64,000 nt of DNA from Winslowiella toletana. GTDB lineage: Bacteria > Pseudomonadota > Gammaproteobacteria > Enterobacterales > Enterobacteriaceae. Below, piece by piece: positions 7,674 through 55,976 of the stretch; within the stretch, counting starts at the first letter, position 1, and the number at the start of each line of letters is the position of its first letter. Under the pieces are notes generated by a model. It saw nothing but the letters and a program-made list of their open reading frames with translations. It searched no databases and was not told the origin of the DNA. The stretch is taken from contig NZ_JAGGMQ010000001.1 in assembly GCF_017875465.1 (NCBI RefSeq), positions 3,162,001-3,226,000 on the forward strand. Direction: 5' to 3'. The position numbers were made by a program, and so were the translations under genes.

Positions 7674-7679
7674 TCTGCA

Positions 7680-8173: not shown

Positions 8174-8185
8174 GCGATCGCCAGA

Positions 8186-8208: not shown

Positions 8209-8223
8209 GTTCACGTAGTCCGG

Positions 8224-40100: not shown

Positions 40101-40746
40101 GGTGGGCAGCGGAGCGGAAGCACTTCAGGAGGTTGCACAGCACTACTATGATGTGGTGCTGACCGACTGTCAGATGCAGGGGATGGATGGTTATACCCTG
40201 ACGCGTCACTTACGTGAATATCAGCAGCGGCATCAGCTGCCGCCGCAGCTGATCGTTGGCTGCACCGCCAATGCGTTTGCCAGCGAACGTGAGCGTTGTC
40301 TGGCGGCGGGGATGGATGATGTGCTGATTAAGCCCCTGACGCAACAGGCGCTGCTTGATGGTATTGCGCAAGCCTGGGAGCAGGTTAATCAGCGGGTCGC
40401 CGCCATTGAAGATGAACCGCTACGGGCGCTGGCGCAGGGCGATGCGCAGCAGGAACGCCAGCTGCTCACGGCGCTGAGGCAAGGGCTGCAACAGGATATG
40501 GCGGCGATCCGCCAGCTGCACGACGGTGGCAATATCGCGCAAATTACCCAGCATGCGCACCGGATGCAGGCGTCATTTGCCCTGCTTGACGACTATCCCG
40601 GGATGCGGGTGTGCTTGCGGATTGAGAAAAGTGGACGGGTTGATCGTCAGACGCTGGATACTTTACTGGAACGGGCGGAAAGAGTGCTGGCTAAGCTGGC
40701 GCAACGGCTGTCGTCACAAAAAAGCCCGCCTGAAGGCGGGCTGTGA
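37153..40746 (+). CDS. EvgS/BvgS-like hybrid sensor kinase
   Basis: The 1197-residue protein has a signal peptide (1-21) and two periplasmic solute-binding (SBP_bac_3) domains (about 60-280 and 298-518). A membrane segment (531-552) is followed by a PAS domain (about 575-685) and HisKA with H717 (MSHEIRTPLH). Next come HATPase (N box NNLLLNAIKFTE, G boxes DSGCGIP and GSGLGLP), a receiver with D1005 (LTDCQMQGMDG) and K1060, and an Hpt-like tail. The Hpt histidine is H1136, but its context HRMQASFALL departs from the usual H-R-x-K-G-A. The double Venus-flytrap layout is that of EvgS/BvgS. Given the neighbouring chitin genes, a sugar or oligosaccharide ligand is plausible but unproven. The last codons form the terminator of the opposite gene. 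Confidence 0.93.
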   Translation: MLRPHWWWLWLIFPPWALALAAEPAAEQVEGRRVEIWSNMTSEAMTPAASHGRVLPHYPVLKVGLFCCSAAPLQTLRWDGKLEGLYPDYLRLLSVVLKRPVEARLYNSWPQAYQALQRGDIQLLAQSDFAVADANNNRTDPILVQPLMLMVRKSNQNTPLAELHIVTAPDINPALLAHLRSRYPQLTVASSQQQGVQAVVSHQADAWLDGQSQIAWYSALRPQSGLVYRRDAQLEELLYGFVGRQGDGVVEAVDAILTGIPHALKNEIYQRWISGLAQGYHSNGPPFSQQEIDWIKQHPVINVAVDIDTPPYSFVNKNDEITGLDIDILQLLAEKSGLNFNFIPASGPPEVEKVLRAEKAQMTPSLMDSQARRGWLTFSDPWGTIEWVMITRNEHSAPFTLQQLNHKRVAIQRGHALLSAMQFYPQMSIVEAATVPEAVDMMLAGAVDATFASLGSANYLQSSRYGNRIIVQTLDNTLQPERFAVLPAYPQLTSILNKGIASLSPNELRALKIHWFSVANLASYNSQLPPWVMLWGVALLVIALSSIFWGSYLARQIGRRKKAEYRLQELLAYWEILFNNVPTPMFVCAADMIVTAANQHFCQATGLRGQEVLGRDLLTLHFLTAADKQEVRGIFLRCLSGDPAHFSDRILHLQGKEREGYLWFEGYHNPAGVMLGVIGGWFDVTERKSLARELLLARDKAELASQEKSAFLARMSHEIRTPLHAIIGILELAVKQRPEQENPLRIAWQAADSLQGIIGDVLDFSKIEAGSIDIRLQPTRLETLLESCAATFRLRAEEKGLALQALLRLPAATAHWLDGARLTQVVNNLLLNAIKFTEKGEIQLRASARYLHNEDRDEVTIEVEDSGCGIPAEMYQAVLQPWVRAESADAVPGSGLGLPISARLINLMGGTLTLGASDSGGVRVNILLSLQRAEPDLLANPALPDSGLRAESESLNILVVDDLPVNLHVLALQFASSGHYVELVGSGAEALQEVAQHYYDVVLTDCQMQGMDGYTLTRHLREYQQRHQLPPQLIVGCTANAFASERERCLAAGMDDVLIKPLTQQALLDGIAQAWEQVNQRVAAIEDEPLRALAQGDAQQERQLLTALRQGLQQDMAAIRQLHDGGNIAQITQHAHRMQASFALLDDYPGMRVCLRIEKSGRVDRQTLDTLLERAERVLAKLAQRLSSQKSPPEGGL
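40718..40741 (-). terminator. terminator of the LPMO gene, embedded in the 3' coding end of the hybrid kinase gene
   Basis: On the minus strand, GCCCGCC-TTCA-GGCGGGC (40741-40724) is followed by TTTTTT (complement of 40718-40723). On the plus strand the same bases encode the final residues of the kinase (KSPPEGGL). Confidence 0.88.
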
Positions 40747-40768: not shown

Positions 40769-42259
40769 TTACTTAGCGCCTTTACACATCGCGTGCATAC
40801 GGCTGTCGCCGACTTTACGCCACACGCCCCAGTCGCCGTCTGCGCCTGGCTGGTTATCCTGCGTCCACCAGCCGTTCATCCATTCGGCGCCGTTATAAGT
40901 CACTTTATTACATGGCATGGCATAGGTTTTACTCTTATCCCATGAGCCGCCAGGCTGTTCAGTCACCTCTTTCTTCGCGTTCAGCACCAGCGTGGTTTCA
41001 CCGCTGTTATTCTGCGGATCGGTGGCTTTCAGCTGCACAACCACATCGAAATCCTCAGTTGCCGCAGCTTTCAGGCGCACACGGGTAGCGATGCCACGGT
41101 CACTTTCCAGCTCGACCTTGTCGGCGTTACGGCTGACGGACCACTCGAAGTCCAGCTGCTGCACCGGGGTGCCATCCGGGTCCTGTGACTGATCCGCACT
41201 CAGGCTGACCCAGTCATCATGAGTGATAGTGGTAGTGGAAGGGGTGATCACCGCCAGCGGCGGCGTGCCGGTTTCCGGTAATTCAGCCTGTTTAATATCA
41301 ATGGTGTAGTTGTAGTTCTTGCTCTTATCGATCGCATACACATGGTAGTTATTTCTCACCGCAGTGATTTTGACCTGACCGTTTTCCAGCGTATCGCCAA
41401 TTTTCACCGGCATATTTTGCTGGTTAACTTTACGTGCGAGGTCATATAACCAGTTGGCCGCTGAGCCCCATTGATCCTCGGCGATCTCATGGGTGAAGTC
41501 GCCAGCCGAATCGCCATTGCTGAACAGACGGAAGGTGACTTTATCACCCGCTTTCAGATTCTGCTGCGCCTGGACACCGTTGCCAATCACGCTCCAGCCC
41601 TGTTCAGGATTTTCGCTGCCCTGAATATCGACATCACTACAGGAGACAAAGTTTTCACTGGTGCCATGTGAGCGCGCAACCGGCCACATCGAGACAATGG
41701 TGTGCTTGCCGCTGGTTCCCTGCGGTAATTTAACCATTTCACGCCACTGCACGAATTCACCATTACCTGGCTGCGCGACATCAGGGAAGTGGGCAATCTC
41801 GACCAGATCGCTCCATTTAATCGCCTGCATATTATCCGCTTCGTTTTTGGTGATATAGTAACGAATATGGTCGGTACTATGGTGGCGCGTGAAATAGTAA
41901 ATAATCGGGATTTCACCGTTTTCATTTGGCGTTATCGCCTTGCGCGCCCAGTAGTTAGCTGGCAGATCCAGTTTGGTATTCGCGGCATTGGCGCTACAGA
42001 TACGGCCATCTGGTAAAGAGCGGGTATAATCCTGGTAATCGCTGGCATTCACATAGACATTCTGCTGCGGAGTGGTAATGGCACTCTCCTGATTATTCTC
42101 TCTTAGCGCATCACATCCCTGAGAATTATCGGTTTTACACAAAAATCCACGCGCAGGCGGATCCATTAAATAACCATGGGCAGAGGCAATCTGTACATGG
42201 GCGGCACTGCCTGCCAGGGCCATAAGTACAAGTAGTGTCTTTTTCTTAAAAGAACGCAT
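40769..42259 (-). CDS. GbpA-like AA10 lytic polysaccharide monooxygenase, multidomain
   Basis: The 496-residue exported protein has a signal peptide ending QIASA, so the mature chain begins with H28 (HGYLMDPPARG), the copper-binding first half of the histidine brace. The second His is probably H127 (TRHHSTDHIRYYIT). Domains: AA10 (28 to about 208), GbpA domain-2-like (about 210-325, GWSVIGNGV, NLKAGDKVTFRLF), PKD/Ig-like (about 333-430), and C-terminal CBM5/12 chitin-binding domain (about 440-496, NGAEWMNGWWTQ). AA10 enzymes cut crystalline chitin oxidatively. The related Vibrio GbpA leaves the cell by type II secretion. That agrees with the secretion operon at 44103-53235. Divergent from the small His-rich peptide gene. 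Confidence 0.93.
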   Translation of the reverse strand: MRSFKKKTLLVLMALAGSAAHVQIASAHGYLMDPPARGFLCKTDNSQGCDALRENNQESAITTPQQNVYVNASDYQDYTRSLPDGRICSANAANTKLDLPANYWARKAITPNENGEIPIIYYFTRHHSTDHIRYYITKNEADNMQAIKWSDLVEIAHFPDVAQPGNGEFVQWREMVKLPQGTSGKHTIVSMWPVARSHGTSENFVSCSDVDIQGSENPEQGWSVIGNGVQAQQNLKAGDKVTFRLFSNGDSAGDFTHEIAEDQWGSAANWLYDLARKVNQQNMPVKIGDTLENGQVKITAVRNNYHVYAIDKSKNYNYTIDIKQAELPETGTPPLAVITPSTTTITHDDWVSLSADQSQDPDGTPVQQLDFEWSVSRNADKVELESDRGIATRVRLKAAATEDFDVVVQLKATDPQNNSGETTLVLNAKKEVTEQPGGSWDKSKTYAMPCNKVTYNGAEWMNGWWTQDNQPGADGDWGVWRKVGDSRMHAMCKGAK

Positions 42260-42911: not shown

Positions 42912-43601
42912 TCACAGTTTAATATCAAACAGACCGGAGCGGCTCAGCAGGAAGTAGAGCTGACAGTCACTCTCCACCGCCAGTTTATCCATAGCCCGCA
43001 GTTTGTGGGCGCTAACTGTCTTGATGCTCAGATTCAGGCGGCTGGCGATTTTGGTTAAACTCAATCCCTGGCATAACAGACGCAGTACCTCCGACTCTTT
43101 AGGTGAGATCTCGTTAGTATTATTATTGGCGTTAAGCAGAGTGCGCATTAAGTCATTCTCCACATAAACCTCATTGTTCAGTACGCTGCTCATCACGCGC
43201 TCCAGCGTTTTTTCACAAATATCCATGCTGATATAACCGGAAATGCCGGAACCGAGCATCATACGCACCAGACTGGCATGGCGGTGCGGCGACATCACCA
43301 CAATTTTGATATGCGGGTATTTGTTACGCAACCACTTCACCAGGTTATAACCATCCATCGAAGCCAGCGGGCTGCTTTTACGCTCATCAGTATTGAGCGT
43401 ATATCCCAGTAACAGCAGATCGATATGATTGCTGTTTAAGGTGCTTACCAGCTCGGCTGGAGTGGAAACATCATTAATAATCGAATAGCTGGCATTGTCA
43501 TCACTGACGGAAAGTTTTTTTCCGGTCATATTTTTAATCAACGATTTAATGCCGCAGCGAATCAGTTTGTGTTCATGAGCAATAGCAATATTGATGGTCA
43601 T
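42912..43601 (-). CDS. orphan RcsB-like regulator with degenerate receiver
   Basis: The 229-residue protein ends in an intact LuxR/GerE helix-turn-helix (ISPKESEVLRLLCQGLSLTK, then KTVSAHKLRAMDKLAVESD). Its N-terminal receiver has lost the phosphorylation site: the acidic pair is HE (IAHEHKL), the phosphoacceptor position reads LLLLGYTLN with G66 for Asp, and the switch Lys region reads GYISMDICE. It should therefore act without phosphorylation, perhaps through dimerisation or a ligand. The ATG follows AGGACAG. No kinase gene adjoins it. It is divergent from a LysR-type DNA-binding fragment. Composition is AT-rich compared with the surroundings, suggesting separate acquisition. Confidence 0.85.
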   Translation of the reverse strand: MTINIAIAHEHKLIRCGIKSLIKNMTGKKLSVSDDNASYSIINDVSTPAELVSTLNSNHIDLLLLGYTLNTDERKSSPLASMDGYNLVKWLRNKYPHIKIVVMSPHRHASLVRMMLGSGISGYISMDICEKTLERVMSSVLNNEVYVENDLMRTLLNANNNTNEISPKESEVLRLLCQGLSLTKIASRLNLSIKTVSAHKLRAMDKLAVESDCQLYFLLSRSGLFDIKL

Positions 43602-43833: not shown

Positions 43834-44091
43834 ATGAGAGCGGGATTTAAAAAAATTAATGCTTTTCTTACCGTTGTCGATACCGGCAGTTTTGAAGAAG
43901 CGGCGCGACAACTTTATATTACACCATCCGCAGTATCATTGCGTCTGAGTTCGCTGGAAGATGAAATGGGCGAAAAACTGGTGGTGCGCCGTCGGCCCTG
44001 TATTCCAACCGCCAAAGGCAAAATATTCTATCAACATGCCCTGGAGCTGCGGAATGTGAAAACGCAGTTAGAGCGCGCGTTTGCCCAATAA
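43834..44091 (+). CDS. LysR-type DNA-binding domain protein (stand-alone or truncated)
   Basis: The 85-residue product corresponds to the N-terminal winged helix-turn-helix and the start of the linker helix of a LysR regulator (INAFLTVVDTGSFEEAARQL, TPSAVSLRLSSLEDEMGEKL). It stops with TAA at 44089-44091, and no effector-binding domain follows in any frame, because the secretion operon begins at once on the other strand. It is either a remnant or a deliberately short regulator. The intact start region (TCGGGGACGAAG-ATG, with GGGGA) supports expression. Possible targets are the divergent pseudo-receiver gene and the secretion genes. Confidence 0.7.
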   Translation: MRAGFKKINAFLTVVDTGSFEEAARQLYITPSAVSLRLSSLEDEMGEKLVVRRRPCIPTAKGKIFYQHALELRNVKTQLERAFAQ

Positions 44092-44102
44092 TTTACCCGC
44101 GA

Positions 44103-44597
44103 TTACCGGGTGCAACGCTCCGGCAACGGCGCGGCTGGATCTTCTTCCACTTTAAACTGCCATTCGGCGTAGCTGGCCGCCTGTTTAAAATGGATATAGG
44201 GTTCACTGAACCCCTGCTGTTTAAGTGGTCTGCCGCTGCCCTGGCTGTAAACGCCGATCCAGCGCTGCTTTTCATCATAGATCATCCCCCATTCACGCTT
44301 TTGGCTAAATGGATCGATATAGATCTGGCGCAGCAGGTGCTGCGCCCGGTTGCCGCGCGTATCGCTGATCAACTGATGGAAAGCGGTCGGATAGCATTTA
44401 TTACCCGCCGGGTTTTCGCGGTACAGACGGATTGCCTGACGAATCTGATCGCCAGCGAACAGCAGCTGCTCTTCGCGATCCTGCCGCCACTGCGTCTGAC
44501 GGTGGTCATAACTACGCAGCAGCAGCAGCGACAGCATGCTAAGCCACGCCAGCAACAGCAGATAGCTGAAGCCCGCCTGGCGATTACCAGTCGGCAT
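44103..44597 (-). CDS. minor pseudopilin-like protein lacking Glu5 (last gene of the secretion operon)
   Basis: The 164-residue protein (from ATG 44597, MPTGNRQAG) has a prepilin-type leader ending in Gly and the hydrophobic helix FSYLLLLAWLSMLSLLLL. Position 5 of the mature chain is Leu instead of the conserved Glu. Absence of Glu5 is characteristic of GspK-type tip pseudopilins. The body (YIDPFSQKREWGMIYDEKQR) resembles the two preceding pseudopilins. An alternative start at 44609 adds four residues. It overlaps the preceding gene by 14 bases. Confidence 0.7.
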   Translation of the reverse strand: MPTGNRQAGFSYLLLLAWLSMLSLLLLRSYDHRQTQWRQDREEQLLFAGDQIRQAIRLYRENPAGNKCYPTAFHQLISDTRGNRAQHLLRQIYIDPFSQKREWGMIYDEKQRWIGVYSQGSGRPLKQQGFSEPYIHFKQAASYAEWQFKVEEDPAAPLPERCTR

Positions 44598-44952
44598 AGG
44601 GCACTCCATCCAGCGATTTCTGCTGCGAGCCACTGAAAATATCAATAATCTGCCCGTGTTCGTCCTGGCGGCTGACCCAGCTATGGTGCTGATCCGTCAG
44701 CGGATCGAGCGGCAGCTGGCGCAGATAGCCTTTTTCCACCAGCTCCTGCAACCGCGTTGGCCCCTGAATATGGTCGTGGCGATAGTGATCGAGCGAAACC
44801 CGTAGCGTATTCAGATTGTGTTTCAGCACCACCTCTTTGGCACGCTCGGTTTGCTGGAAATAGCGCGGCGCCACCAGGGTTACCAGCGTGGCAATAATCG
44901 CCATCACCACCAGCAGTTCAATCAGGGTAAAGCCTTTTTCACCATTGCGCAT
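44584..44952 (-). CDS. GspG-like pseudopilin B
   Basis: The 122-residue protein has the prepilin motif KG|FTLIELLVV with Glu5 intact, a hydrophobic N-terminal helix and a globular part ending LDGVPYADW. It should be cleaved by the peptidase encoded at 53487. The frame is open far upstream, but ATG 44952 gives a normal six-residue leader. It overlaps its neighbours by 14 bases on both sides. The C-terminal motif (IIDIFSGS...LDGVPYADW) is shared with the pseudopilin upstream, so the two arose by duplication. Confidence 0.85.
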   Translation of the reverse strand: MRNGEKGFTLIELLVVMAIIATLVTLVAPRYFQQTERAKEVVLKHNLNTLRVSLDHYRHDHIQGPTRLQELVEKGYLRQLPLDPLTDQHHSWVSRQDEHGQIIDIFSGSQQKSLDGVPYADW

Positions 44953-45418
44953 AAGGCACCCCGTTGAGTCCGCGGGCTTCGCTATATGAAGCGACATCAT
45001 AGATATCTCCCCGGCGGGTAAAATTACCCGGTTCGCTGTTACTGCTGCGCAAGCGCCAGCTCTCATGGTCAGCTTTACCGGCGCAATCACACATCGGATC
45101 GCGCGGAATTCGCCGCAGAAAGTAGATTTTGCGCTGATTAGGCGAGGTTTTATCCACCACCCCTTCGCTAAGCGCCTGTAGCGTTGGCGGATAGCCGGAT
45201 TCATCGCTGCGTTTCTCAATCAGCCCTTGCTGACTGGCGCGATGATAGCTATCCAGCGCCTGGCGGATCTGACGCAGCGCCTGTTGCAGCTGTTCCTCTT
45301 TATGGCGCTGAGCCTGTTTCTCAATTAGCGGCAGCGAGGCTGCCGCCAGTGAAGCCAGCAGACTGAGCGTCACCATCATTTCAACCAGGGTAAAACCCTG
45401 TTGCCGTCGCTGACTCAT
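44939..45418 (-). CDS. GspG-like pseudopilin A
   Basis: The 159-residue protein has the prepilin motif QG|FTLVEMMVT (cleavage after G8, Glu at mature position 5), a membrane helix and a globular domain. The C-terminal stretch is IYDVASYSEARGLNGVPYAQ. Two cysteines (CDC) sit in the loop after RIPRDPM. Its ATG overlaps the secretin stop by 4 bases. It is a fibre subunit candidate, distinct from the canonical GspG encoded first in the operon. Confidence 0.85.
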   Translation of the reverse strand: MSQRRQQGFTLVEMMVTLSLLASLAAASLPLIEKQAQRHKEEQLQQALRQIRQALDSYHRASQQGLIEKRSDESGYPPTLQALSEGVVDKTSPNQRKIYFLRRIPRDPMCDCAGKADHESWRLRSSNSEPGNFTRRGDIYDVASYSEARGLNGVPYAQW

Positions 45419-47304
45419 GGCGCGCTTCTTGCTGCGCTGTCATGGGCCGGGTTGGGTGGCGGCAGTTCGCCGCGCTGATCCGGGAAGTGCGCCGGTGGTG
45501 CCAGCGGTGGCGCGACAGATGCTTCTCTGCCTACCTGGATACGACCCGCTGCGCGCAAACGCATATCCTGATCGCCTGGCAGATCTTCAGTCCCTACGGC
45601 GATCGCATTGATATGGGATCCCGGCAGATCGATGCTGCGGGCAATACGCGGCGTGATCAGCAGCACCACTTCGGTGCGCTTCTTCTCTTTATCCGAGGTT
45701 CTGAACAGCGACCCGATCAATGGCACATCGCTGAGTCCGGGCACGCCACTTTTCTCATCTTTCTGGTTCATGCTGATCAATCCAGCCAGCATCTGGGTTT
45801 CGCCATCGAGGCTGCTGAGAATGGTTTTCGCCATCCGGTTGTTGGTGCTGTAGTATTTCAGGCCATCCTTACTCTCCTGCGCCAGGCCCAGGCTGCTGAG
45901 GCTGAACTCAACATCCATACTGATCTCGCCGTCGAGACTGATCTCTGGCGTCACCTGCAGCTTCAGGCCAACGTCCTGGTACTCCACTTTCTGGTTGGTT
46001 ACGCCATCATTAGTGGTATTGGTTAATACCGGCAGTTTCTCGCCAATTTCGATCAACGCCTGCTTACTGTTTTTCACATGAATACGTGGATTGGCCAGCA
46101 CTCTGGCATTGCTGCGGATCTTACTGATATCGAGTTTAAGTCCGCGATTGCTGCCAAGATTGATAAACATATTGTCGCGACCAAAACCGTTCAGCGGAAT
46201 ATTGCTGGATCCATCGGCGCCGCCATTAAAGCCAATACCGATCTCACCCGGATAACGAATACCCAGTTTGGTGGCGTCACTGCTGCTGATCTCCAGCACT
46301 TCGACTTCCAGCGTGACCTCCGCTTCCGGACGATCCAGCGTCATCAGCAGGCGTTCGATCATCTCGATACTTTCACGTGGACTGCGTACCGTCAGTGAGT
46401 TAGTCCGTTCATCGACATGAATATCTTTAATCTTCATCAGGTTGCGCAGCGCCACGTTGACATCCTTCGCTTTGGCGTAGCCGAGGAAAAAGGTTTTCAC
46501 CATAATGTCACGATAGATTTTCTCTTTGTTCTGGCTGGCCGGATAGATCAGCAAGGTATTGCCATTCAGCACCTTTTTCCGCAGCTGATTGGAGATCAAC
46601 AGCAAATTGATCGCGTCTTCCGCCGTGGTTTTATTGGCAATAATGCTGGTGGTGATATTGCGTGACACATCGTTATCAAAGATAAAGTTCACTCCGGTGA
46701 TCTTCGAAATGGTGTTGAAGATCTCCATCAGATTATGCGAGCGAAAATTGAGTGATACCGGCTTCTGCAGTTCAGCGCTCATCCGCTGCGACGGCTGCGT
46801 GCTGGACGACAACTGGCGCAGCAGATGATCGCGCAGCGCGGTGGCCTGCGGCCAGCCCGGCTCCTCTTCCAGCACTTTCTGGATTTTTTCCAGCGCCGCT
46901 TGCGGGTTGTTTGCCGCCAGTTTGCTGGCCTGCTGATACATCATATCCAGCGAACGCCAGGCATTGATGCGGCGCAGTCCTTGCTGCGCACGCATATTGC
47001 CGGGCTGATACTGCAATGCGGTACGCCACAGGCGTGCCGCGTCCTGATGGTTATTCTGCGCAACGGCGCGATCCGCTTGTTTCAGATACAGATCGACCAG
47101 CTGATTACTCTCCAGCTGTTCGCGGCTTTTCAGCGTCAAATCCTCAGGATTGACCAGACGCTGTTGTCTCAGCTTATCCAGCGAATGGATAAGCTGCTGT
47201 TGTTGATCTTGCGGCAGTTGGTCAGAGGTATGTGACTGCTGGTTAGCACAGCCTGCCAGCAGCAGCACGGTGATTAATACAGACAGCTTTTTTTTCGTAA
47301 ACAT
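45415..47304 (-). CDS. gspD: secretin (GspD/PilQ/MshL-like) lipoprotein
   Basis: The 629-residue protein from ATG 47304 has a lipoprotein signal (LLLAGC, C19), so it should be lipidated and reach the outer membrane without a separate pilotin. A TPR-like helical region (about 70-165) is followed by secretin N domains (about 180-330) and the C-terminal secretin barrel, whose signature includes VPGLSDVPLIGSLFRTSDKE and VVLLITPRI. The tail is Pro/Ala-rich. Secretin lipoproteins with TPR-like N-termini are more typical of Msh/Tad-like systems than of Gsp. A TTG six bases upstream is a less likely start. Confidence 0.9.
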   Translation of the reverse strand: MFTKKKLSVLITVLLLAGCANQQSHTSDQLPQDQQQQLIHSLDKLRQQRLVNPEDLTLKSREQLESNQLVDLYLKQADRAVAQNNHQDAARLWRTALQYQPGNMRAQQGLRRINAWRSLDMMYQQASKLAANNPQAALEKIQKVLEEEPGWPQATALRDHLLRQLSSSTQPSQRMSAELQKPVSLNFRSHNLMEIFNTISKITGVNFIFDNDVSRNITTSIIANKTTAEDAINLLLISNQLRKKVLNGNTLLIYPASQNKEKIYRDIMVKTFFLGYAKAKDVNVALRNLMKIKDIHVDERTNSLTVRSPRESIEMIERLLMTLDRPEAEVTLEVEVLEISSSDATKLGIRYPGEIGIGFNGGADGSSNIPLNGFGRDNMFINLGSNRGLKLDISKIRSNARVLANPRIHVKNSKQALIEIGEKLPVLTNTTNDGVTNQKVEYQDVGLKLQVTPEISLDGEISMDVEFSLSSLGLAQESKDGLKYYSTNNRMAKTILSSLDGETQMLAGLISMNQKDEKSGVPGLSDVPLIGSLFRTSDKEKKRTEVVLLITPRIARSIDLPGSHINAIAVGTEDLPGDQDMRLRAAGRIQVGREASVAPPLAPPAHFPDQRGELPPPNPAHDSAARSAP

Positions 47305-47315
47305 AGTCAATATCG

Positions 47316-47843
47316 TTAGAATTTAGGTTTTGATTGCATATCGTCCAGCGGTAAGCGCCGGTCGGTTTCAAGCGGCAGCCAGCGGAAAACCAGATAGTCA
47401 GGTTCGATCGCTGTTAACTGCCAGTTCTCATTTAATTTTTCGCCACGGCGAATGCTGTCGGCGATCCTGCACTGATTACAGACGATCCAGCTTTGCTTAC
47501 CGTCGCTTAGCACCAGATAGCGCTGGTTATGGCTCCACCAGGCGCCGACCAGCTTGAATGGCAGGCTGGGGGCGCTGGGGGGCGCTGCCGGTTTGGGCGG
47601 CGGCGGTGGCGGCGCGGGTTTCGCTTTCGGTCCCTGAAACGGGAACAGATTGCTGTCGTGATCGTCAGGCGCGCGGGTCGCCGTGGTACGGCTACTGTCG
47701 GGCGGTCCGGCAGCCAGCGGGCTGGCCTGTGGCAGTAACGCCTGCTGCTGCGTGGGCGCATCATCAGGCTCACTGACCAGACTCCACAGCACCAGCGCAG
47801 CGGTTATGCCGATCGCAATCTGCAAGTAACGCGGCAGTTTCAT
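47316..47843 (-). CDS. GspC/PilP-like periplasmic connector
   Basis: The 175-residue protein has a short cytoplasmic tip, one membrane segment (about 7-22), a Pro/Ala-rich linker (about 72-93, with runs of Pro) and a C-terminal globular region (FKLVGAWWSHNQRYLVLSDG, IVCNQCRI). It probably contacts the secretin, as the homology region of GspC or PilP does. No PDZ domain follows. It overlaps the previous gene by 4 bases and sits directly before the secretin gene. The assignment rests on architecture and position, not on strong sequence similarity. Confidence 0.65.
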   Translation of the reverse strand: MKLPRYLQIAIGITAALVLWSLVSEPDDAPTQQQALLPQASPLAAGPPDSSRTTATRAPDDHDSNLFPFQGPKAKPAPPPPPPKPAAPPSAPSLPFKLVGAWWSHNQRYLVLSDGKQSWIVCNQCRIADSIRRGEKLNENWQLTAIEPDYLVFRWLPLETDRRLPLDDMQSKPKF

Positions 47844-48394
47844 TGGCTCTCTCCTGCCAGCGTGACGCGCAGCGACATGGTTAGCTGGGTGGTGGCGGGT
47901 GATGTACGCGCCATGCCTAACGACTCAAATTGCAACGGCAGGCTGGCCGCCATCTCGCGCAATGCGCTTTGCAAATTCATATATTCACCCACCAGCGGAA
48001 TATCGAGCACCAGTTGATCGCGCTGGCCATCGCTGCTGTCTGCCTGCAGCTGGTAACGGCTTTCGTTAACCTGCAAACCATGCTTTTGCAGGATGGCGAA
48101 CAGCGCCTTCACCTGTTCATATTCCGTGACGCTTAGTGCGCTCCCGGCTGCGCTCTGTTCCGGCGCGCTAATCGGCAGCGGCGCCGCCAGCTGCTGCTGG
48201 ATCTCCTGCTGACGCAGGGTATCGGCGATCAACGCCGGGCGCAGCTGAGCACATAAGTAAAACAACAGCACCAGCCACAGCGCGGCAATCAGCAGTGGCA
48301 GCGGGCCAAGCAGTTCATAGCACTGGCTGGCATACCAGCGCAGACGGGGTTGCCACTCATTTAACGAGGGCAGGATGCCTGAGTTAAGGCGCAT
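47840..48394 (-). CDS. PilO/GspM-like inner-membrane assembly protein
   Basis: The 184-residue protein has one membrane segment (about 31-50), a short coiled-coil-like part and a periplasmic alpha/beta region (YEQVKALFAILQKHGLQVNE, LVLDIPLVGEYMNLQSALRE, LTMSLRVTLAG). This layout matches PilO or GspM. It overlaps the PilN-position gene by 11 bases. With its neighbours it would form the inner-membrane platform linking ATPase and secretin. Sequence similarity is too low for a firm name. Confidence 0.65.
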   Translation of the reverse strand: MRLNSGILPSLNEWQPRLRWYASQCYELLGPLPLLIAALWLVLLFYLCAQLRPALIADTLRQQEIQQQLAAPLPISAPEQSAAGSALSVTEYEQVKALFAILQKHGLQVNESRYQLQADSSDGQRDQLVLDIPLVGEYMNLQSALREMAASLPLQFESLGMARTSPATTQLTMSLRVTLAGESQ

Positions 48395-48878
48395 CGGTGT
48401 ACTCCAGATTTAACGTGGCGCGAATCTTCCATGGTCCGGGCATACTGTTTTCCGTTTGATGGCTTTCCAGACTTACCCGGGCTGGCAGCCGTTGTAAGCG
48501 TGAGACAAAGTCCAGCAGCGCATCCAGTGAGTGACTGAGCACCTCAACGCGGATCCGTTGCTCACGCACATCTTTCTGCAGCGACAGCAGGGCAATATCG
48601 TCGTGCAGGGCCAGCGCGATCAGCGCCAGTCCGTTCAGCTGCGTTGACTCCTGCTGTGGCGGCGCTTTATCGAAGGCGCGCTGTCTGGCGCTAATCGCTT
48701 CCGCCGCCTGACGGTGAGCCTGTAGCAGTTGCATCTCCTGAATCACTGCCTGCGTCAGCTGTTGTTGCTGCTGCCGGGTGATAGCGATCGCCAGCAGCGT
48801 CGGCGCAATCAGTACCACCAGCAGGACGAGACTGATCGGCAGCCGCCAGCGCGCGATAAATTGATGACGATTTATCAT
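48384..48878 (-). CDS. PilN/GspL-C-like inner-membrane assembly protein
   Basis: The 164-residue protein has a basic N-terminus, one membrane segment (about 14-34), a Gln-rich coiled coil (about 35-75) and a ferredoxin-like periplasmic part (QLNGLALIALALHDDIALLS, VEVLSHSLDALLDFVSRLQR). This is the PilN type, equivalent to the periplasmic half of GspL. It lies between the PilM-position and PilO-like genes, as in type IV pilus operons. Confidence 0.65.
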   Translation of the reverse strand: MINRHQFIARWRLPISLVLLVVLIAPTLLAIAITRQQQQQLTQAVIQEMQLLQAHRQAAEAISARQRAFDKAPPQQESTQLNGLALIALALHDDIALLSLQKDVREQRIRVEVLSHSLDALLDFVSRLQRLPARVSLESHQTENSMPGPWKIRATLNLEYTDAP

Positions 48879-48880
48879 GG

Positions 48881-49567
48881 CTATACATCTCCCTGCCTGC
48901 GCAGACCCGATGTGCTGTTCAGCACAAAGCGCGGCAGCGTTGGCAGACCGGCGAGGCGGTTAGCGGTATCCAGCTGTTGTCTTAATTCGTTGTGCGGCAG
49001 ATGCAGGCTAAACACGCTGTGCCACTGTTGCTGAAAGCGGCAGGCGAAACTGCTTTGCTGCGGGCCGATGCAGGCGAACAGCGCGTTGTCTGGCAACTGG
49101 CGGCCAAAATCGCTCAGCATATTGCTGAATGGCGTGCGGCAGCCGCGCAGCCGCAGACGCTGATCCTTTGCCACTTGCTGCAGTTCACTCAGCAGCGCCT
49201 GCGGCAGCAGGGCGGCAAAGGCATTCTCGCCATAGCCGCTGTGCAAAAAGCTCACGGCCATCGGCTGCTGCTCATCCTGCTGCTGTGCCAGCAACAGCGC
49301 GGCATACTGACGCAGTTCCGCCGGTCGCATAATGCCATTGCTCCACGGCACCAGCAGGTAGCTGAGGTGGGGGGCGTCGACGACAAACTCCAGCGTGTCG
49401 CGCCAGCGCGGCGCGGCCGGCAGACTGGCGAATAACTGCGCCAGCTGATCGGCCAGCGGCTGCTGCGGCTGCCAGCGGCACTGGTATTGCAGCCGGTTAT
49501 TGAGCCACAGTTGCAGATGCTGCTGTTGCAGGCGGCAACACCAGCGTTTAATGGAGGGAAATAACAC
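48881..49567 (-). CDS. PilM/GspL-N-position protein, unrecognised sequence
   Basis: The 228-residue protein has no membrane segment or signal peptide, so it is probably cytoplasmic. It is Gln/Leu-rich, and the ATPase motifs of the actin-like PilM fold are not obvious. It overlaps the GspE gene by 20 bases and precedes the PilN-like gene, the position of PilM, MshI or the cytoplasmic half of GspL, which bind the secretion ATPase. The start is GTG 49567. The function is inferred from position only. Confidence 0.55.
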   Translation of the reverse strand: MLFPSIKRWCCRLQQQHLQLWLNNRLQYQCRWQPQQPLADQLAQLFASLPAAPRWRDTLEFVVDAPHLSYLLVPWSNGIMRPAELRQYAALLLAQQQDEQQPMAVSFLHSGYGENAFAALLPQALLSELQQVAKDQRLRLRGCRTPFSNMLSDFGRQLPDNALFACIGPQQSSFACRFQQQWHSVFSLHLPHNELRQQLDTANRLAGLPTLPRFVLNSTSGLRRQGDV

Positions 49568-51179
49568 GTTTCACCTCCTGCAGGCTGGTCAGCCCTTTGC
49601 TGGCTGCGTTAATAGCGATCTGCTGCAATGGCATAAAGCCTTCCGCCAGTGCGACTTCACGTAGCTGGCGCAGCGGTGCGCGCGCCAGCAGCGCCTCTTT
49701 CATCGCATCGCTGAAATGCAGTACTTCCGCCAGCGCCAGCCGTCCGTGATAACCGCTGTTCCGGCAATGATCACAGCCCGCCCCCCGGCTCCAGCTGGTT
49801 TCGCTAAGCTGGAGGCGATCAAGCTGCCAGTCGGCAATCTCTTCCGCTGTCGGCTGAGAAGCCTGCTGACACTGCGGGCAGATCTGACGCACCAGGCGCT
49901 GGGCGACGACGCCGTTTAGCGCGGTGATCAGACTGGCTGGCTCGACCTGCATATAGAGAAAACGCTCCAGCACGCTGAATACACTGTTGGCGTGCACCGA
50001 CGAGAGCACGACGTGGCCGGTCAGCGCCGCCTGCACCGCAATCCCGGCGGTCTCACCGTCACGAATTTCCCCCACCAGAATAATATCGGGGTCGTGACGC
50101 AGGATGGCGCGCAGGCCGCGGGCAAAGCTCAATCCTTTCTTATCGTTGACCGGAATTTGCAATACCCCCTCCAGCTGATACTCCACCGGATCTTCAATGG
50201 TGATGATCTTGCTTTCACCACTGTTCAGCTCGCTGAGCGCCGAATAGAGGGTGGTGGATTTACCGCTGCCGGTGGGCCCGGTTACCAGCACCATGCCGTG
50301 TGGGATCTGCGTCAGCTTGCGTATCGCCTGTAACGTCGGCAGATCAAAGCCGAGCGTTTCCAGCCGCAGTTTTTTATCATGGGATTTATCCAGCACGCGC
50401 ATCACCGCATCCTCACCGTGGATGCTGGGCATAATCGAGACGCGGAAATCGACATCGCGCTGCTGAATATGCGCCTTAAAACGACCATCCTGTGGCACGC
50501 GGCGCTCAGAGATATCCATGCAGCCAAGCACCTTCAGACGCGAAATAATCTGCTCGGCATTCTGCCAGCCGTTGCAGCGCGTAATGTTATGCAGCACGCC
50601 ATCAATGCGGTATTTCACCACCAGGCCATCAGGCACGCTCTCCAGATGAATATCGCTGGCGCGGCTTTGCAGGGCGTCGTACAGCGTGGAGTCGACCAGT
50701 CTGATCACCGAGCTCTGCTCCTGATCGATGGTGACCAGTGAGATCTCCAGCGTTGTCTCTTCACCCTGACTGGCGAAATCCTGATGATCGATCTGCTCCA
50801 TAGTGCGCTGCTGACGCGACAGATTATCCAGCTGTTCATTGACCCAGCCTGGACGACAAAGCGCCAGACGCTGAGCATGGCGCTGTGCCCACTGGCGTAG
50901 CGACAGGCTAAAGGGATCCGCCAGCAGCAGCCACGCTTTGCCATCCAGCTGGATCGGTAACAGACGACGCGCCAGCGCCTGCGGCAGGCTGATGCGGCTG
51001 AAGTCCAGTTCCGCCGCCGTAAGCTGTTGTTCCTGCAGCGGCCAGAGACCCAGCTCTGCCGCCAGCGGCTCCAGCTGCTGCGGCTGTCCGGCCAGCAGTT
51101 GCTCCAGCCAGTCGGCACGCTGTTCCTCTGCGAGATTCAGCCATGCAGAGTCTGGCATTTCGTGATGATCATGGGTCAT
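49548..51179 (-). CDS. gspE: secretion/pilus assembly ATPase GspE
   Basis: The 543-residue cytoplasmic hexameric ATPase has N-terminal MshE/GspE N domains (to about 150) and a RecA-like core. Visible motifs are Walker A GPTGSGKST (301-309), Asp box IITIEDPVEYQLEGV, Walker B DIILVGEIRD and His box LSSVHAN. The zinc tetracysteine site is C434, C437, C469, C472 (CPQC, CDHC). The presence of the tetracysteine loop and the one-base overlap with the gspF stop (TGATG) agree with a type II/type IVa assembly motor. Confidence 0.95.
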   Translation of the reverse strand: MTHDHHEMPDSAWLNLAEEQRADWLEQLLAGQPQQLEPLAAELGLWPLQEQQLTAAELDFSRISLPQALARRLLPIQLDGKAWLLLADPFSLSLRQWAQRHAQRLALCRPGWVNEQLDNLSRQQRTMEQIDHQDFASQGEETTLEISLVTIDQEQSSVIRLVDSTLYDALQSRASDIHLESVPDGLVVKYRIDGVLHNITRCNGWQNAEQIISRLKVLGCMDISERRVPQDGRFKAHIQQRDVDFRVSIMPSIHGEDAVMRVLDKSHDKKLRLETLGFDLPTLQAIRKLTQIPHGMVLVTGPTGSGKSTTLYSALSELNSGESKIITIEDPVEYQLEGVLQIPVNDKKGLSFARGLRAILRHDPDIILVGEIRDGETAGIAVQAALTGHVVLSSVHANSVFSVLERFLYMQVEPASLITALNGVVAQRLVRQICPQCQQASQPTAEEIADWQLDRLQLSETSWSRGAGCDHCRNSGYHGRLALAEVLHFSDAMKEALLARAPLRQLREVALAEGFMPLQQIAINAASKGLTSLQEVKRVISLH

Positions 51180-52348
51180 CAGGCTAATCCTCCCGCCATT
51201 TCAAAAATGGGCATATAAAGCAGAAACACCACCAGGCCAACCAGGCCACCGACCACCAGCATCAGCAGCGGTTCAAACACTTTGCTAAAGGTCTCGATAG
51301 CGCGTTCCAGGCTCTCGTCATAAAAAGCGGCGATGCGCTCGCACATTGCAGGCAGCTCGCCTCCGCGTTCGCCAACCACCAGCAGGCGGCTGGCGACCGG
51401 AGTGGTCAGTCCTTGCGCGCTCAGGCAGTGTGATAGCGCTTTACCCGTCTGCACCTCCGTCAGAATCTGGCGCAGCCGCGGCTGATAAGTGGCCGGTAGC
51501 AGGCCGCCGGTCAGCTGAAGCGCGTCGACGGCGGCCATGCCTCCCTGTAACAGCAGGCCGAGAGTGCGATAGAAGCGCACCAGAATCGTCAGCCGGTACT
51601 GTTGCCTGAGCTGCGGAATGCACAGCAGCTGTCTGAAACCCGCCTGGCGCAACGCTTTATTGCGTAGTGCGGCAACGATCAGGGCGACAGCGCCTGCAGT
51701 CAGCAGCAGCAGCAGCGGGCCATAGCTGTCGGTCAGCCCACCCCACCAGACAATAAAGTGCGCGCTGGCATTCAGGTTTTGCATGCCGTTAAACACCACC
51801 GCAAAACGCGGAATAATAAATCCCAGCAGAAAGAACAGAATCAGGCAGCCGACGCCGATCACCACGCTGGGGTAGAGCAGGGTGCTGCGAATGCGTTTGC
51901 GCAGGGTTTCCATGCGTTTTTCGTAATGCAGGAAACGTCCCAGCGCCACCGGCAGCTGACCAGTCTGTTCCGAAGAGGCCACGGTGCTGACCAGCAGCGG
52001 CGGAAACAGCGCGGGTTGGGTGGCGAGCGCCTGCGACAACTGCTGTCCACGATAGAGTTCGCGCAGAATGTCACCCAGTACCCGGCGCTGTTGTGGTTCA
52101 TTGCAGCTCTCATTCAGTGCTTCGATGGCTTCAACAATGACCAGGCCGGCCTCCAGCAGCGCGATCAGCTCCTGAATAAACAGCGTCAGGGGAAATGGCC
52201 GTGCGCGCCGTGCGCTGGTTTTGGCCTTTACCTCTAATACCAGCGCATCGCTGGCGACTTGCGCTTTCGCCTGCTCGACGCTGCTGGCATAAACCTGCTG
52301 CACGCTGCGGACACCGTTGCGCAATAACGTTATCTGATAATTTTTCAT
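51179..52348 (-). CDS. gspF: inner-membrane platform protein GspF
   Basis: The 389-residue protein has two T2SSF cytoplasmic domains (about 55-175 and 255-375) and three membrane helices (about 160-185, 210-230, 360-382). Family blocks include FIQELIALLEAGLVIVEAIE, LVSTVASSEQTGQLPVALGR and VGERGGELPAMCERIAAFYD. It anchors the GspE ATPase at the membrane and is coupled to gspE. Length is close to that of typical GspF (about 400). Confidence 0.95.
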   Translation of the reverse strand: MKNYQITLLRNGVRSVQQVYASSVEQAKAQVASDALVLEVKAKTSARRARPFPLTLFIQELIALLEAGLVIVEAIEALNESCNEPQQRRVLGDILRELYRGQQLSQALATQPALFPPLLVSTVASSEQTGQLPVALGRFLHYEKRMETLRKRIRSTLLYPSVVIGVGCLILFFLLGFIIPRFAVVFNGMQNLNASAHFIVWWGGLTDSYGPLLLLLTAGAVALIVAALRNKALRQAGFRQLLCIPQLRQQYRLTILVRFYRTLGLLLQGGMAAVDALQLTGGLLPATYQPRLRQILTEVQTGKALSHCLSAQGLTTPVASRLLVVGERGGELPAMCERIAAFYDESLERAIETFSKVFEPLLMLVVGGLVGLVVFLLYMPIFEMAGGLA

Positions 52349-52354
52349 GGCTTT

Positions 52355-52810
52355 TTATTGCTCAGCAGTGCGGCTCTCTTTTTTCAGCCGCGCATAGTGG
52401 GGATGTACGCGCTGGATATAACGCTGACGTAAATGCCCCCGATCCGACCCGTTACCGGCGTTATAAGCCCCGACCGCCTCCCAGCTATAGCCATAGCGGC
52501 GCATAAAGCCTGCCAGCACCCAGGCGCCGGTCATCACGCTGAGGCACGGGTCGTCGAGCAGTGCGCTTTCAGAGATCTGAAAGTTGCGCAGTAGCGGCAG
52601 ATGGCGGCTGTTAATTTGCATCAGGCCAATGTCGTAACTGCCGTCACGGTTCTGATTACGCGCTGAGCTTTGCAGGTTGGACTCCACGATGGCGATGGCA
52701 TGCAGCAACTCCGGTTCAATGCCATAGCGCTGGCCAGCCTCTTGCCAGCAGGTCGCTTGTGCCGGTAGCTGCATAGCCCACAGCGACAGAAAACAGAGAA
52801 ATACACGCAC
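52355..52810 (-). CDS. lytic transglycosylase-like protein (IagB/SLT family) in the secretion operon
   Basis: The 151-residue exported protein has a signal peptide (1-19) and an SLT lysozyme-like domain. The catalytic Glu is E43 in AIVESNLQ, followed by DIGLMQINSRH and AVGAYNAGNG. Such enzymes nick peptidoglycan so that large envelope machines can pass. They are common in type III and type IV secretion and in some pilus clusters, but are not part of the canonical Gsp set. It starts at GTG 52810, two bases after the gspG stop. Confidence 0.9.
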   Translation of the reverse strand: MRVFLCFLSLWAMQLPAQATCWQEAGQRYGIEPELLHAIAIVESNLQSSARNQNRDGSYDIGLMQINSRHLPLLRNFQISESALLDDPCLSVMTGAWVLAGFMRRYGYSWEAVGAYNAGNGSDRGHLRQRYIQRVHPHYARLKKESRTAEQ

Positions 52811-52812
52811 GA

Positions 52813-53235
52813 TCAGAATCCGTAGCTCACCGCCTGGTCGCCATTACCGGCCGCCAGCAGCTCAACTTCATACACCACATTTTTTTTACGCGTCGGGTTA
52901 TGCCACTGGAACGGGTTGCCCCAGGGATCGGCAGGCACTTCTTTACTCAGATACGGACCTCGCCAGTTTTTGACGCCATTCGGACGTTCATGCAGCGCTT
53001 TCAGCCCCTGTGCTTCGCTGGGGTAGTGGCCAACATCAAGACGATACTGACCCAGCGCCTCAGACAGGATTTTCATCTGACTGATCGCGGTTTTTTCTTT
53101 CGCCTGATCCACCTGAGAAAACAGGCGTGGACCGACAAAACCAGCCAGCAGCGCAATAATCATTAATACCACCAGCAGTTCGAGCAGCGTAAAGCCCTGC
53201 TGATGACGGTTACGAGGTAATAAGGTTTTTTTCAT
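52813..53235 (-). CDS. gspG: major pseudopilin GspG
   Basis: The 140-residue protein has a 14-residue basic leader and the prepilin site QQG|FTLLELLVVLMI (Glu5 = E19). The globular domain is typical of GspG (LSEALGQYRLDVGHYPSEAQ, LKALHERP, WRGPYL, DPWGNPFQW). It forms the shaft of the endopilus after processing. It is the first gene of the minus-strand operon running to 44103. ATG 53235 follows GTGAGAACATC. The 251-base divergent region up to the peptidase gene is AT-rich, and no operator was recognised in it. Confidence 0.95.
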   Translation of the reverse strand: MKKTLLPRNRHQQGFTLLELLVVLMIIALLAGFVGPRLFSQVDQAKEKTAISQMKILSEALGQYRLDVGHYPSEAQGLKALHERPNGVKNWRGPYLSKEVPADPWGNPFQWHNPTRKKNVVYEVELLAAGNGDQAVSYGF

Positions 53236-53486
53236 GATGTTCTCACGTTTATTTCACAATATTGGTTTAACAACTGATGTAAATATTCTTAAATAACCCC
53301 TGCGCAATAAACAGGCTATTGCTCTATGGTTAATTAAGAATTAATGCCGGATGATTGAGAGTTTTCTTTATTTAGCCGGTGGGGGGATTTATCGCTATAT
53401 GGCGGGTTACTATGCGATGCGCAATATCTGATAACAGTAATGTTTTTACTGATAATGTCCTGAACAAAGATTAAATGAGAGTGTAA

Positions 53487-54236
53487 ATGGAAATGGTATG
53501 GGCTGCATTAGCTGGTGCAGTCATCGGCAGTTTTCTCAATGTGGTGATTTATCGCCTGCCGCTGATGATGGCGGGTGAAACATGTAGGTTAAGTTTTCCC
53601 GCCTCACACTGCCCTTGCTGTGGCTCGCCGGTGCGCTGGCGCCACAATCTGCCGCTGCTTGGCTGGTTGCTGTTGCGGGGGCATTGTGCCGATTGTCATC
53701 AACCAATTAGCTGGCGCTACCCGCTGGTGGAAGGGGGGACGGCACTGTTATTTATGCTGGTGGCCTTTCGTTATGGACTGACCTGGCAAAGTGGATTTAT
53801 TCTCAGCGTGATTTGTCTGCTGATCGCACTGGCGGTTATTGACTGGCGCACCATGCTGCTACCGGATCGCCTGGTATTGCCGTTGTGGGTGCTGGGAGTG
53901 GCGGCGACGCTGCTGGAGATTAATGCGGTCAGCTGGCGCGATGCGTTAATCGCCTCGGCCATCGGTTTTGCCCTGCCGTGGCTACTGGATCGTCTGCATT
54001 ATCTGCTGCGTGGCGGCGCCGGGATGGGGATGGGCGATATGAAGCTGTTTGCCGCACTGGGCGCCTGCTTTGGCGTGGAAACCCTGTGCCATATTATGCT
54101 GTTTGCGCCTCTGCTGGCGTTGTTAAGCGCGGTGCTGCTACGGGTAAAAAAGGGCGAGGCTTTTCCTTTTGGTCCTTATCCGGCAGTAGTAGCGATATTT
54201 TTTCTGATATTTGATCCTCGTTATTATCATTTTTAA
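53487..54236 (+). CDS. gspO: prepilin peptidase / N-methyltransferase (GspO/PilD)
   Basis: The 249-residue inner-membrane aspartyl protease cleaves prepilin leaders and methylates the new N-terminus. The zinc-binding cysteines C42, C45, C67 and C70 (CPCC, CADC) form the N-terminal domain. Catalytic aspartates are D119 (VIDWRT) and D184 (GMGDMKLFA), with the FGPYPA motif near the C-terminus. It is divergent from the gspG operon, whose four pseudopilins are its expected substrates. Confidence 0.95.
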   Translation: MEMVWAALAGAVIGSFLNVVIYRLPLMMAGETCRLSFPASHCPCCGSPVRWRHNLPLLGWLLLRGHCADCHQPISWRYPLVEGGTALLFMLVAFRYGLTWQSGFILSVICLLIALAVIDWRTMLLPDRLVLPLWVLGVAATLLEINAVSWRDALIASAIGFALPWLLDRLHYLLRGGAGMGMGDMKLFAALGACFGVETLCHIMLFAPLLALLSAVLLRVKKGEAFPFGPYPAVVAIFFLIFDPRYYHF

Positions 54237-54338: not shown

Positions 54339-55976
54339 ATGTTACCTGTGAAAAAGAAATCTGGATTAAATATGATAACGGCATCACTGTTGCTGGCTGG
54401 AATAGTCAGCAGTGCGATAGCGAGTGCTGCTACATTTTATGCTGCGGATAGCTTTCCGGATATCAGTGATAAAAAAATTATGGTGGGTTTCTGGCATAAC
54501 TGGGCGAGCCAGTCCGATGGTTTTCAGCAGGGGAGTGCCGCCAATATAGATCTGACGGAGATCCCTGCAGAATATAACGTTATTACCGTGGCCTTTATGA
54601 CCGGCAACGGCATTCCGACTTTCCAGCCTTATAATATGAGCGATGCAGAGTTTCGCCACAAGGTCGCGATCCTTAACAGCGAAGATCGCCCGGTACTGAT
54701 TTCGCTGGGTGGCACCGGGGTGCATATTGAGCTGGCGCCGGGAGAGGCGCAAAAATTTGTCGATGAAATTATTCGTCTGGTTGAGCTGCACGGTTTTGAC
54801 GGCCTGGATATCAGTCTGCCGGGCAGTGCGCTTGCCGCCGGCGCCAATCAGACTGAAATTCCCGCCGCACTGAAACGAGTTAAAGCGCAATACCCCAAAT
54901 TTATAATCAGTATGTCGCCTGAGTTCCCTGACCTGCGGCAGAAGGGGGGCGCCTGGAAAAAACTGATCGAAAATCTTGAGGGCTATTATGACTTTATCTC
55001 TCCACAATATTACAACCAGAATGACGATGGCGTAGAGGGTGAAAATGGCTGGTATGCGCAAAATGATGACAGCAAAAAAGCGCAATTTTTATATACCCTG
55101 AGCGACTCGCTGGTGCATGGCACGCGCGGCTATATCCCTGTTCCGGCGGATAAACTGGTTATCGGCCTGCCCAGCAACGAAGATGCCGCCGCCAACGGTT
55201 ATGCTAAAAATGAAGCTGATGTGCGTAACGCCTGGGAACGTCTGGCGGCCCAGGGGACGCCAGTCAGGGGACTAATGACCTGGTCGGTTAACTGGGATGC
55301 CGGGCATAACCGCAACGGTAATGCTTATGGCAACGCGTTTGTTGAGCGTTTTGGTCAGTTAATTAATGAAGATCTGACGGCCGCTCCGGACCATGACGCA
55401 CCCAGCCAGCCAGGTAAGCCCGATCTCACTCTGGCAGAGGGGCTGGTTGTTCTGGCATGGCAACCTGCCAGCGATAATATCGGCGTATCGCACTACAATA
55501 TCTGGCGTAACGGCGTTGAAATAGCTCAGTCGCTGTTGCCGGAGTGGCGTGACACGGAGGTCAGCGCAGGCAACAGCTATGAGTATCAGATTGTTGCGGT
55601 GGATAAGGCGCAGAATCTCTCTGTGGCCGGGGAGTCCTCTTCCATCACTGTGGAGGATGAAGCGCCGCCAGAAGATAATGAGAAGCCTTCCCCTCCGGTA
55701 GCGCTGGCAGTTACTGAGGTCGGTCAGGATCGCCTGACGCTTAGCTGGCATGCCGCCATGGACAATCTGGTCGTCAAACACTACCGCGTCTATCGCAATG
55801 GGGAGTTTATCAGTGAAGCGCTGGAGACCCGCTTTATCGATAGCGGGCTGACGGCAGGAAACACCTACGAATACCAGGTGGCGGCAGTGGATACTGCAGA
55901 TAGCTCTTCGGATAAGAGTCAGCCGCTGATAGTGAAAACCGGTAATGCAGCTATGCCGGCAGCAGAATATCCGTAG
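54339..55976 (+). CDS. GH18 chitinase-fold protein with two FN3 domains and a disrupted catalytic motif
   Basis: The 545-residue exported protein has a signal peptide (to about residue 31), a GH18 barrel (about 46-345) and two fibronectin III domains (about 355-440 and 450-535). Barrel features fit chitinases: MVGFWHNW, ISLGG, FISPQYYNQ and MTWSVNWD. The catalytic DxxDxDxE motif reads D154-G-L-D157-I-S159-L-P161, so both the last Asp and the proton-donor Glu are missing. It may be a chitin-binding lectin or decoy instead of a hydrolase. The start is ATG 54339 or GTG 54351 (MKKKSGLNM); neither has a good ribosome site. It is a likely cargo of the adjacent secretion system. Confidence 0.88.
   Translation: MLPVKKKSGLNMITASLLLAGIVSSAIASAATFYAADSFPDISDKKIMVGFWHNWASQSDGFQQGSAANIDLTEIPAEYNVITVAFMTGNGIPTFQPYNMSDAEFRHKVAILNSEDRPVLISLGGTGVHIELAPGEAQKFVDEIIRLVELHGFDGLDISLPGSALAAGANQTEIPAALKRVKAQYPKFIISMSPEFPDLRQKGGAWKKLIENLEGYYDFISPQYYNQNDDGVEGENGWYAQNDDSKKAQFLYTLSDSLVHGTRGYIPVPADKLVIGLPSNEDAAANGYAKNEADVRNAWERLAAQGTPVRGLMTWSVNWDAGHNRNGNAYGNAFVERFGQLINEDLTAAPDHDAPSQPGKPDLTLAEGLVVLAWQPASDNIGVSHYNIWRNGVEIAQSLLPEWRDTEVSAGNSYEYQIVAVDKAQNLSVAGESSSITVEDEAPPEDNEKPSPPVALAVTEVGQDRLTLSWHAAMDNLVVKHYRVYRNGEFISEALETRFIDSGLTAGNTYEYQVAAVDTADSSSDKSQPLIVKTGNAAMPAAEYP

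Follow-up and report, generated by a model that had tools for sequence, protein, structure and literature searches.

A probable chitin-directed type II-like secreton of an 'unorthodox' clade in Winslowiella toletana

Unorthodox type II secretion systems (T2SS) were already listed in genome papers of 2010-2016, if not before. The CHR2 replicon of Cupriavidus metallidurans CH34 carries a 'smaller gsp cluster' made up of gspD, gspEFG, two additional gspG genes and four conserved hypothetical genes (PMC2864759). Ralstonia solanacearum is described as having two 'unorthodox T2SS' with seven core genes. In one set, four hypothetical genes separate gspE from gspD, one has an adjacent rhsB, and loss of one unorthodox set together with rhsB correlated with a host-range trait (PMC5080846, PMC6428702). 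The passages of this open-licence PMC literature that describe the Cupriavidus and Ralstonia sets give neither a function nor a cargo for them (PMC2864759, PMC5080846, PMC6428702). Here we analysed a 64-kb window of the genome of the plant-associated bacterium Winslowiella toletana (G000:C1:3162001-3226000; coordinates below are positions within it), in which a gene cluster at 44103-54236 belongs to this kind, already in print for Cupriavidus and, by description, for Ralstonia. The window supplies named candidate cargo. We consider it probable that the cluster encodes a complete secreton, type II-like and of the 'unorthodox' clade, which comes with a dedicated peptidase and transglycosylase and serves chitin-active proteins alone, where we infer both the secretion and the cargo.

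The core of the cluster is a minus-strand transcription unit that runs from 53235 to 44103. It holds twelve genes rather than the eleven of the original prediction, which was right about their presence, open frames, order and tight packing. In order of transcription, they encode the major pseudopilin GspG (G, 52813..53235; TIGR01710 134 bits, cut-off 88.85), a small lytic transglycosylase (LT, 52355..52810; SLT, IagB-like; PF01464 1e-25, IagB model 167.5 bits, below its cut-off of 208), a GspF-like inner-membrane platform protein (F, 51179..52348; PF00482 above cut-off), a GspE-like assembly ATPase (E, 49548..51179; PF00437 1e-122, and tree placement), the small proteins M (48881..49567), N (48384..48878), O (47840..48394) and P (47316..47843), a secretin (45415..47310; PF00263 4e-41), and the pseudopilins psp1 (44939..45418), psp2 (44584..44952) and psp3 (44103..44597). 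Spacing between adjacent genes is -20 to +6 bases, computed with 44955 as the first base of psp2, whose likely ATG is at 44952, and none of the twelve genes contains an internal stop. The predicted prepilin peptidase (A24; 53487..54236, plus strand; PF06750 and PF01478 above cut-offs) is divergent from the operon across 251 bases, and a GH18 gene comes next. The same twelve-gene order is found in L009-L014, L047 and L065-L067, that is, in 11 clusters from 10 genomes of the window's family, two of them in one genome (G032). Each has one peptidase gene within 17 kb. It adjoins G in the window, L009, L010, L011 and L013, is found on the far side of psp3 in L014 and L047, and is 15-16 kb off in L012 and L065-L067. 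Compared with Winslowiella arboricola, whose secretin is 95% identical (L001), the ratio of non-synonymous to synonymous substitution rates (dN/dS, with gene overlaps unmasked and no significance test) is 0.01-0.28 in all 19 genes compared (12 from the operon and 7 neighbours) and 0.07-0.28 in the operon. Hence, the gene order kept in ten more family clusters and the low dN/dS indicate that the operon is more than a chance arrangement.

The operon stands between two genes for chitin-active proteins, both where they had been predicted. One encodes a GbpA-like AA10 lytic polysaccharide monooxygenase (LPMO; 40769..42259, minus strand) with a CBM5/12-like tail (19.3 bits, below the cut-off of 26.2). 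The other encodes a ChiC1-type GH18 protein with a FnIII domain and a lost catalytic motif (DISLP; 54339..55976, plus strand). Both products are candidate cargo. Across the 11 family clusters and 10 genomes, 14 of the 27 GH18 genes are located no more than 20 kb from a cluster (0.30 expected), as do 9 of the 25 LPMO genes (0.29 expected) and 11 of the 28 A24 peptidase genes (0.32 expected). Within 10 kb, the counts are 10/27, 4/25 and 7/28, respectively. A GH18 or LPMO gene is found within 20 kb of ten of the 11 clusters, and the sole GH18 genes of G000 (the W. toletana genome) and G129 are adjacent to the cluster. The chitin genes themselves differ. ChiC1-type GH18 genes, whose products are 44-79% identical to that of the window, occur near the clusters of the window, L009, L010, L011, L088 and L089; ChiA-type genes occur near L010 and L011; and a third set, grouped by motif alone, near L065-L067 and L086. 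The window LPMO shares only ~24% identity with the LPMOs of L047 and L088, and in G719 an LPMO and a subtilase-like protein are encoded between psp3 and the peptidase. With several LPMO and GH18 types near the clusters, the link to chitin appears to have persisted while the cargo changed. Altogether, chitin-directed export, which the original prediction had called plausible, is the best reading of the locus and is backed by neighbourhoods in other genera.

A working model can be drawn for such a secreton. The LPMO and GH18 preproteins, and elsewhere a subtilase with a similar tail, would be carried into the periplasm by their signal peptides, identified by eye. The local peptidase would mature the pseudopilins and the transglycosylase would open the cell wall for the machine. 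Acting through F and the M/N/O platform, E would build a short pseudopilus of GspG, with psp1, psp2 and psp3 as its cap and psp3 as the candidate tip. This pseudopilus would push cargo through the lipo-secretin, presumably a self-piloting one, with P connecting the secretin to the inner membrane. A neighbouring sensor kinase and a RcsB-like regulator may control the system.

The identity of the parts is clearest for the core. The T2SSE, T2SSF and Secretin domains pass their Pfam cut-offs, and the NCBIfam equivalogs are not passed (GspE 475.2 bits, cut-off 630.25; GspF 227.6, cut-off 424; GspD 193.8, cut-off 351.35). M has no Pfam match and shows the actin-like fold common to PilM and GspL, so that it is likely the counterpart of PilM or of the GspL cytoplasmic domain. 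N, which matches residues 247-362 of GspL by profile comparison (probability 91, E 1.2e-6) and TIGR01709 weakly, is likely the counterpart of the GspL C-terminal part or PilN. The operon has no single-chain GspL, M and N being separate genes; together, these two likely resemble a GspL split in two. O narrowly passes the GspM subtype b model (PF10741 T2SSM_b, 22.5 bits, cut-off 21.7) and has nothing above probability 10 in profile comparison (HofO 10, GspM 3); it may be a GspM-b/PilO-type protein, with thin support. P has a helix and a HR-like domain and is likely a short GspC/PilP-type protein without PDZ, its fold being weakly shown. The predicted absence of GspC, GspL and GspM holds in part, since likely counterparts are encoded, split or shortened. 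The secretin, predicted to be a TPR-lipoprotein, does have a lipobox-like motif (LAGC), and its N-terminal stretch is TPR-like, with TPR models scoring below their cut-offs. Among the pseudopilins, psp1 and psp2 carry Glu5 and have GspG as best profile match (probability 99), below the NCBIfam cut-offs of the Gsp models. The candidate tip protein psp3 (G|FSYLL) has no Pfam or NCBIfam match and gives weak profile comparisons (GspH 68, GspG 60, GspJ 54, GspK 37); its Glu5 is missing in 26 of 26 loci. As predicted for GspH, GspI and GspJ, no clear orthologue of these proteins or of GspK is present in the operon, and their positions are taken by two GspG-like pseudopilins and the Glu5-less psp3. 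A search of PDB sequences returned no match for psp3 or M and one weak match for P.

These parts could also belong to a pilus machine, which would make a surface filament for binding chitin or for DNA uptake on chitin, with the nearby enzymes co-regulated and exported by another route. Chitin is linked to type IV pili in Vibrio, which we count in favour of this alternative, as we do the separate M and N genes, which recall PilM and PilN, and the better match of P to HofP (probability 74) than to GspC. Moreover, L014 adjoins chaperone-usher genes (by eye) and L048 adjoins curli genes. We nevertheless regard a pilus as unlikely. The shaft is GspG by profile, no PilT-type retraction ATPase is encoded among the twelve operon genes (PF00437 proteins with 343- and 408-aa frames are encoded elsewhere in the genome), and the genome keeps a hofB/hofC/ppdD-like set. 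In the E tree, which has few references, the operon ATPase groups with neither HofB/PilB nor the one MshE row, whose branch is very long.

Phylogeny of the ATPase and the secretin argues for common descent of these clusters. In the E tree (38 rows), 26 rows of this cluster kind fall on one side of a 100/100 branch, and the window's family (11 rows) groups at 100/99. Support in the secretin tree (34 rows) is 97/99 for the cluster kind and 100/100 for the family. The clade brings together beta- and gammaproteobacterial clusters that resemble one another in gene content, and the T2SS, MSHA and pilus sequences taken as references lie outside it; L063, from a replicon of C. metallidurans CH34, lies inside it in both trees. 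The original prediction is supported in that the set is unlike the Gsp, Msh and pilus sets of the textbooks. Its 'hybrid', in the sense of a mixture, is not supported: since ATPase and secretin each fall in one clade with the same relatives, they appear to have been inherited together, a well-supported conclusion, and the locus looks like an old machine inherited whole. The two trees did not favour a recent hybrid. We give somewhat less than even weight to a wider proposal, that these clusters form a monophyletic class of their own among type IV filament systems, distinct from both the canonical T2SS and the pili. Its hallmarks would be a psp3 that lacks Glu5, a GspL in two parts and a secretin with a lipobox. 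Such a class would be a modular secreton whose cargo is encoded locally in each lineage: LPMO and GH18 in the window's family, giant RHS/FG-GAP proteins in Burkholderiales and perhaps curli elsewhere. The E tree references are five T2SS, four pilus, two unplaced and one MSHA ATPase, those of the secretin tree are fewer, and both trees are midpoint-rooted with several long branches, long reference branches included; for these reasons the separate class is not proven.

Several points weigh against a secreton dedicated to chitin-active proteins. O has thin support and P a HofP-like profile. GspK is above cut-off in G100, G032, G719, G796, G790 and G807, where a probable canonical T2SS could be exporting these proteins as well. 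At 20 kb, the binomial values (GH18 2.7e-17, LPMO 8.1e-10) are not strict chance probabilities, as the ten genomes are related and were chosen for carrying the cluster, with no cluster-free control, so that independence is overstated. Neither a GH18 nor an LPMO gene lies within 20 kb of one of the two G032 clusters (G032:C7, L013), no LPMO is encoded near the cluster in G121 and G116, and no GH18 in G719. The clusters of G641 and G764, which have the same order and adjoin curli genes, were left out of the GH18/LPMO count. Finally, distant relatives neighbour RHS or FG-GAP genes, and chitin is not intrinsic to the machine.

On the other hand, the T2SSK profile exceeds its cut-off in only six of the ten genomes and in none of G000, G129, G121 and G116, so the cluster may be the only T2SS of these four. 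The ATPase family was checked in G000 only, where its other long member is HofB-like. G000 also has a sub-cut-off GspK match near a queC-like gene (by eye), which we take to be a ComEA-like protein. We also observed a lone gspO-like peptidase gene (L073:8732-9547) in this genome, near bfr-, tuf- and fusA-like genes (by eye). Such surroundings are the site of the gsp operon in E. coli, and it looks as if a canonical gsp operon had been lost there. A possible sole T2SS in four genomes, with a single adjacent GH18 gene in two, makes the proposal easy to test. A function here would be the first for the clade, and it would bear on whether GspG-like paralogues with a Glu5-less pseudopilin are able to stand in for GspH/I/J/K.

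A secreton with another main cargo would explain the chitin genes as sharing an island in a lineage that lives on chitin. L013 fits this alternative, and in Enterobacter the clusters also stand beside large Ig-like proteins (by eye) and two proteins for which Pfam has no match. Burkholderiales relatives adjoin RHS, FG-GAP or filamentous-haemagglutinin genes: RHS genes are found beside four of the six annotated loci (L062, L064, L083 and L085; not within the L082 and L084 stretches). Of the other distant loci, L031 has a RHS match too. L048 and L049 adjoin curli genes, with CsgG, CsgE and curlin repeats confirmed in L048 and those of L049 read by eye. This variation of neighbours further out suggests a machine that changes cargo and underlies the wider proposal above. 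We find another main cargo improbable, given that the sole GH18 genes of G000 and G129 sit next to the cluster and that the association persists with changed cargo types. A decaying or silent system, to which the lost catalytic residues of the window GH18 and the patchy distribution (5 of 37 genomes of the genus) might point, is very improbable in view of the absence of internal stops in the twelve genes and of the dN/dS of these genes and of the GH18 gene (0.21).

The psp3 profile matches the stated 5 of 37 genomes of the window's genus, at least 5 of 394 of the order and at least 6 of 299 of the phylum (G000 included in each), the last two being lower bounds with 12 or 9 candidates scored per genome. 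It also matches 4 of 61 genomes of the genus of G719. M alone matches 2 of 99 and 5 of 60 genomes (G000 included in both). A scan of genome contigs returned W. arboricola as its only match, and 80% coverage of the E gene was found in none of 5,426 E. coli genomes. Among PLSDB plasmids, M has no match, and secretin relatives below 60% identity occur in 25 records at E 1e-30. More distant clusters (L026-L031, L048-L049, L062-L064 and L082-L085) vary in layout. L048-L049 keep the window's order without G or F nearby, L062 and L084 have F and E after psp3, three genes separate E from D in L085, and no G was seen in L083. The M, N, O and P profiles fail to match in some of them, and a transglycosylase gene also precedes G in L064. 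In L026, a second GspE/PilB-like ATPase gene lies directly behind psp3 (6789-8231; GspE 270.8 bits vs PilT 84.7).

Both a RcsB-like response regulator (42912..43601, minus strand), possibly the regulator of the system, and an 85-aa protein with only a LysR-type helix-turn-helix (43834..44091, plus strand) are encoded between the LPMO and the operon. The first is also present in L009-L012 and was not found in L013 or L014; the second, which lacks an effector domain, recurs in L009, L010, L011 and L013 and has a dN/dS of 0.010. A sensor kinase (37153..40746, plus strand; SBP-PAS-HK-REC, Hpt below cut-off) presumably resembles EvgS/BvgS. In L013, L014 and L089, a regulator with a Trans_reg_C domain has a small partner gene, ToxR/ToxS-like by eye. 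The DxDxE motif of the sole GH18 gene has been lost differently in two sister genomes (DISLP in the window, DIHLA in W. arboricola, L009). The dN/dS between these two genes is nonetheless 0.21, and the product is likely a chitin-binding pseudo-enzyme. Two ChiA-type GH18 genes (L010:13813-15771 and L011:15239-17197) read NIDWQ at the expected catalytic Glu. Very large Ig-repeat-like proteins (by eye) adjoin the Enterobacter clusters (L065:65-2596, L066:5-3526 and L089:12727-18999). A cytochrome b561 gene occurs in three LPMO islands (L086:15210-15716, L088:7375-7899 and L089:4825-5370) and was not found in the window; it could possibly serve as electron source for the LPMO. A review of Yersinia Yts1 also places a cytochrome b gene beside yts1.

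Like the canonical T2SS, the system of the window has a GspG shaft, E, F, a secretin and an HR-type protein. Unlike it, GspL is apparently split, P has no PDZ and there is no clear GspH/I/J/K. The MSHA pilus carries a PilM/N/O/P-like set. In both trees its single reference row (L075, which we take from its gene order to be the Aeromonas MSHA) falls outside the clade, at the end of a very long branch. The gsp of E. coli is outside the clade as well, in trees whose references do not include Yts1 or Txc. Canonical T2SS are described as exporting chitinases or chitin-binding proteins in Yersinia (Yts1), B. rhizoxinica and P. aeruginosa PA7 (Txc). Txc, with GspL and GspF annotated in PSPA7_1407-1417, was taken as canonical and hence as a functional parallel only, and Yersinia Yts2 was rejected as a match, since its description puts it near the usual T2SS model. 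The Cupriavidus locus L063 has the make-up of the published cluster on the same replicon and is probably Rmet_4704-4713, its record having no gene tags (PMC2864759). Its secretin is 34% identical to that of the window over 78%, and the LT, M, N, O and peptidase profiles, unlike in the window, match nothing in L063. The likeness to the unorthodox T2SS of Ralstonia is drawn from the published descriptions, not from sequences (PMC5080846, PMC6428702). Unlike the sets described there, the window has a transglycosylase gene that separates G from F, as well as peptidase and chitin genes close by. The window has the Cupriavidus-type order of G, F, E, four small genes, D and three pseudopilins, with LT inserted between G and F.

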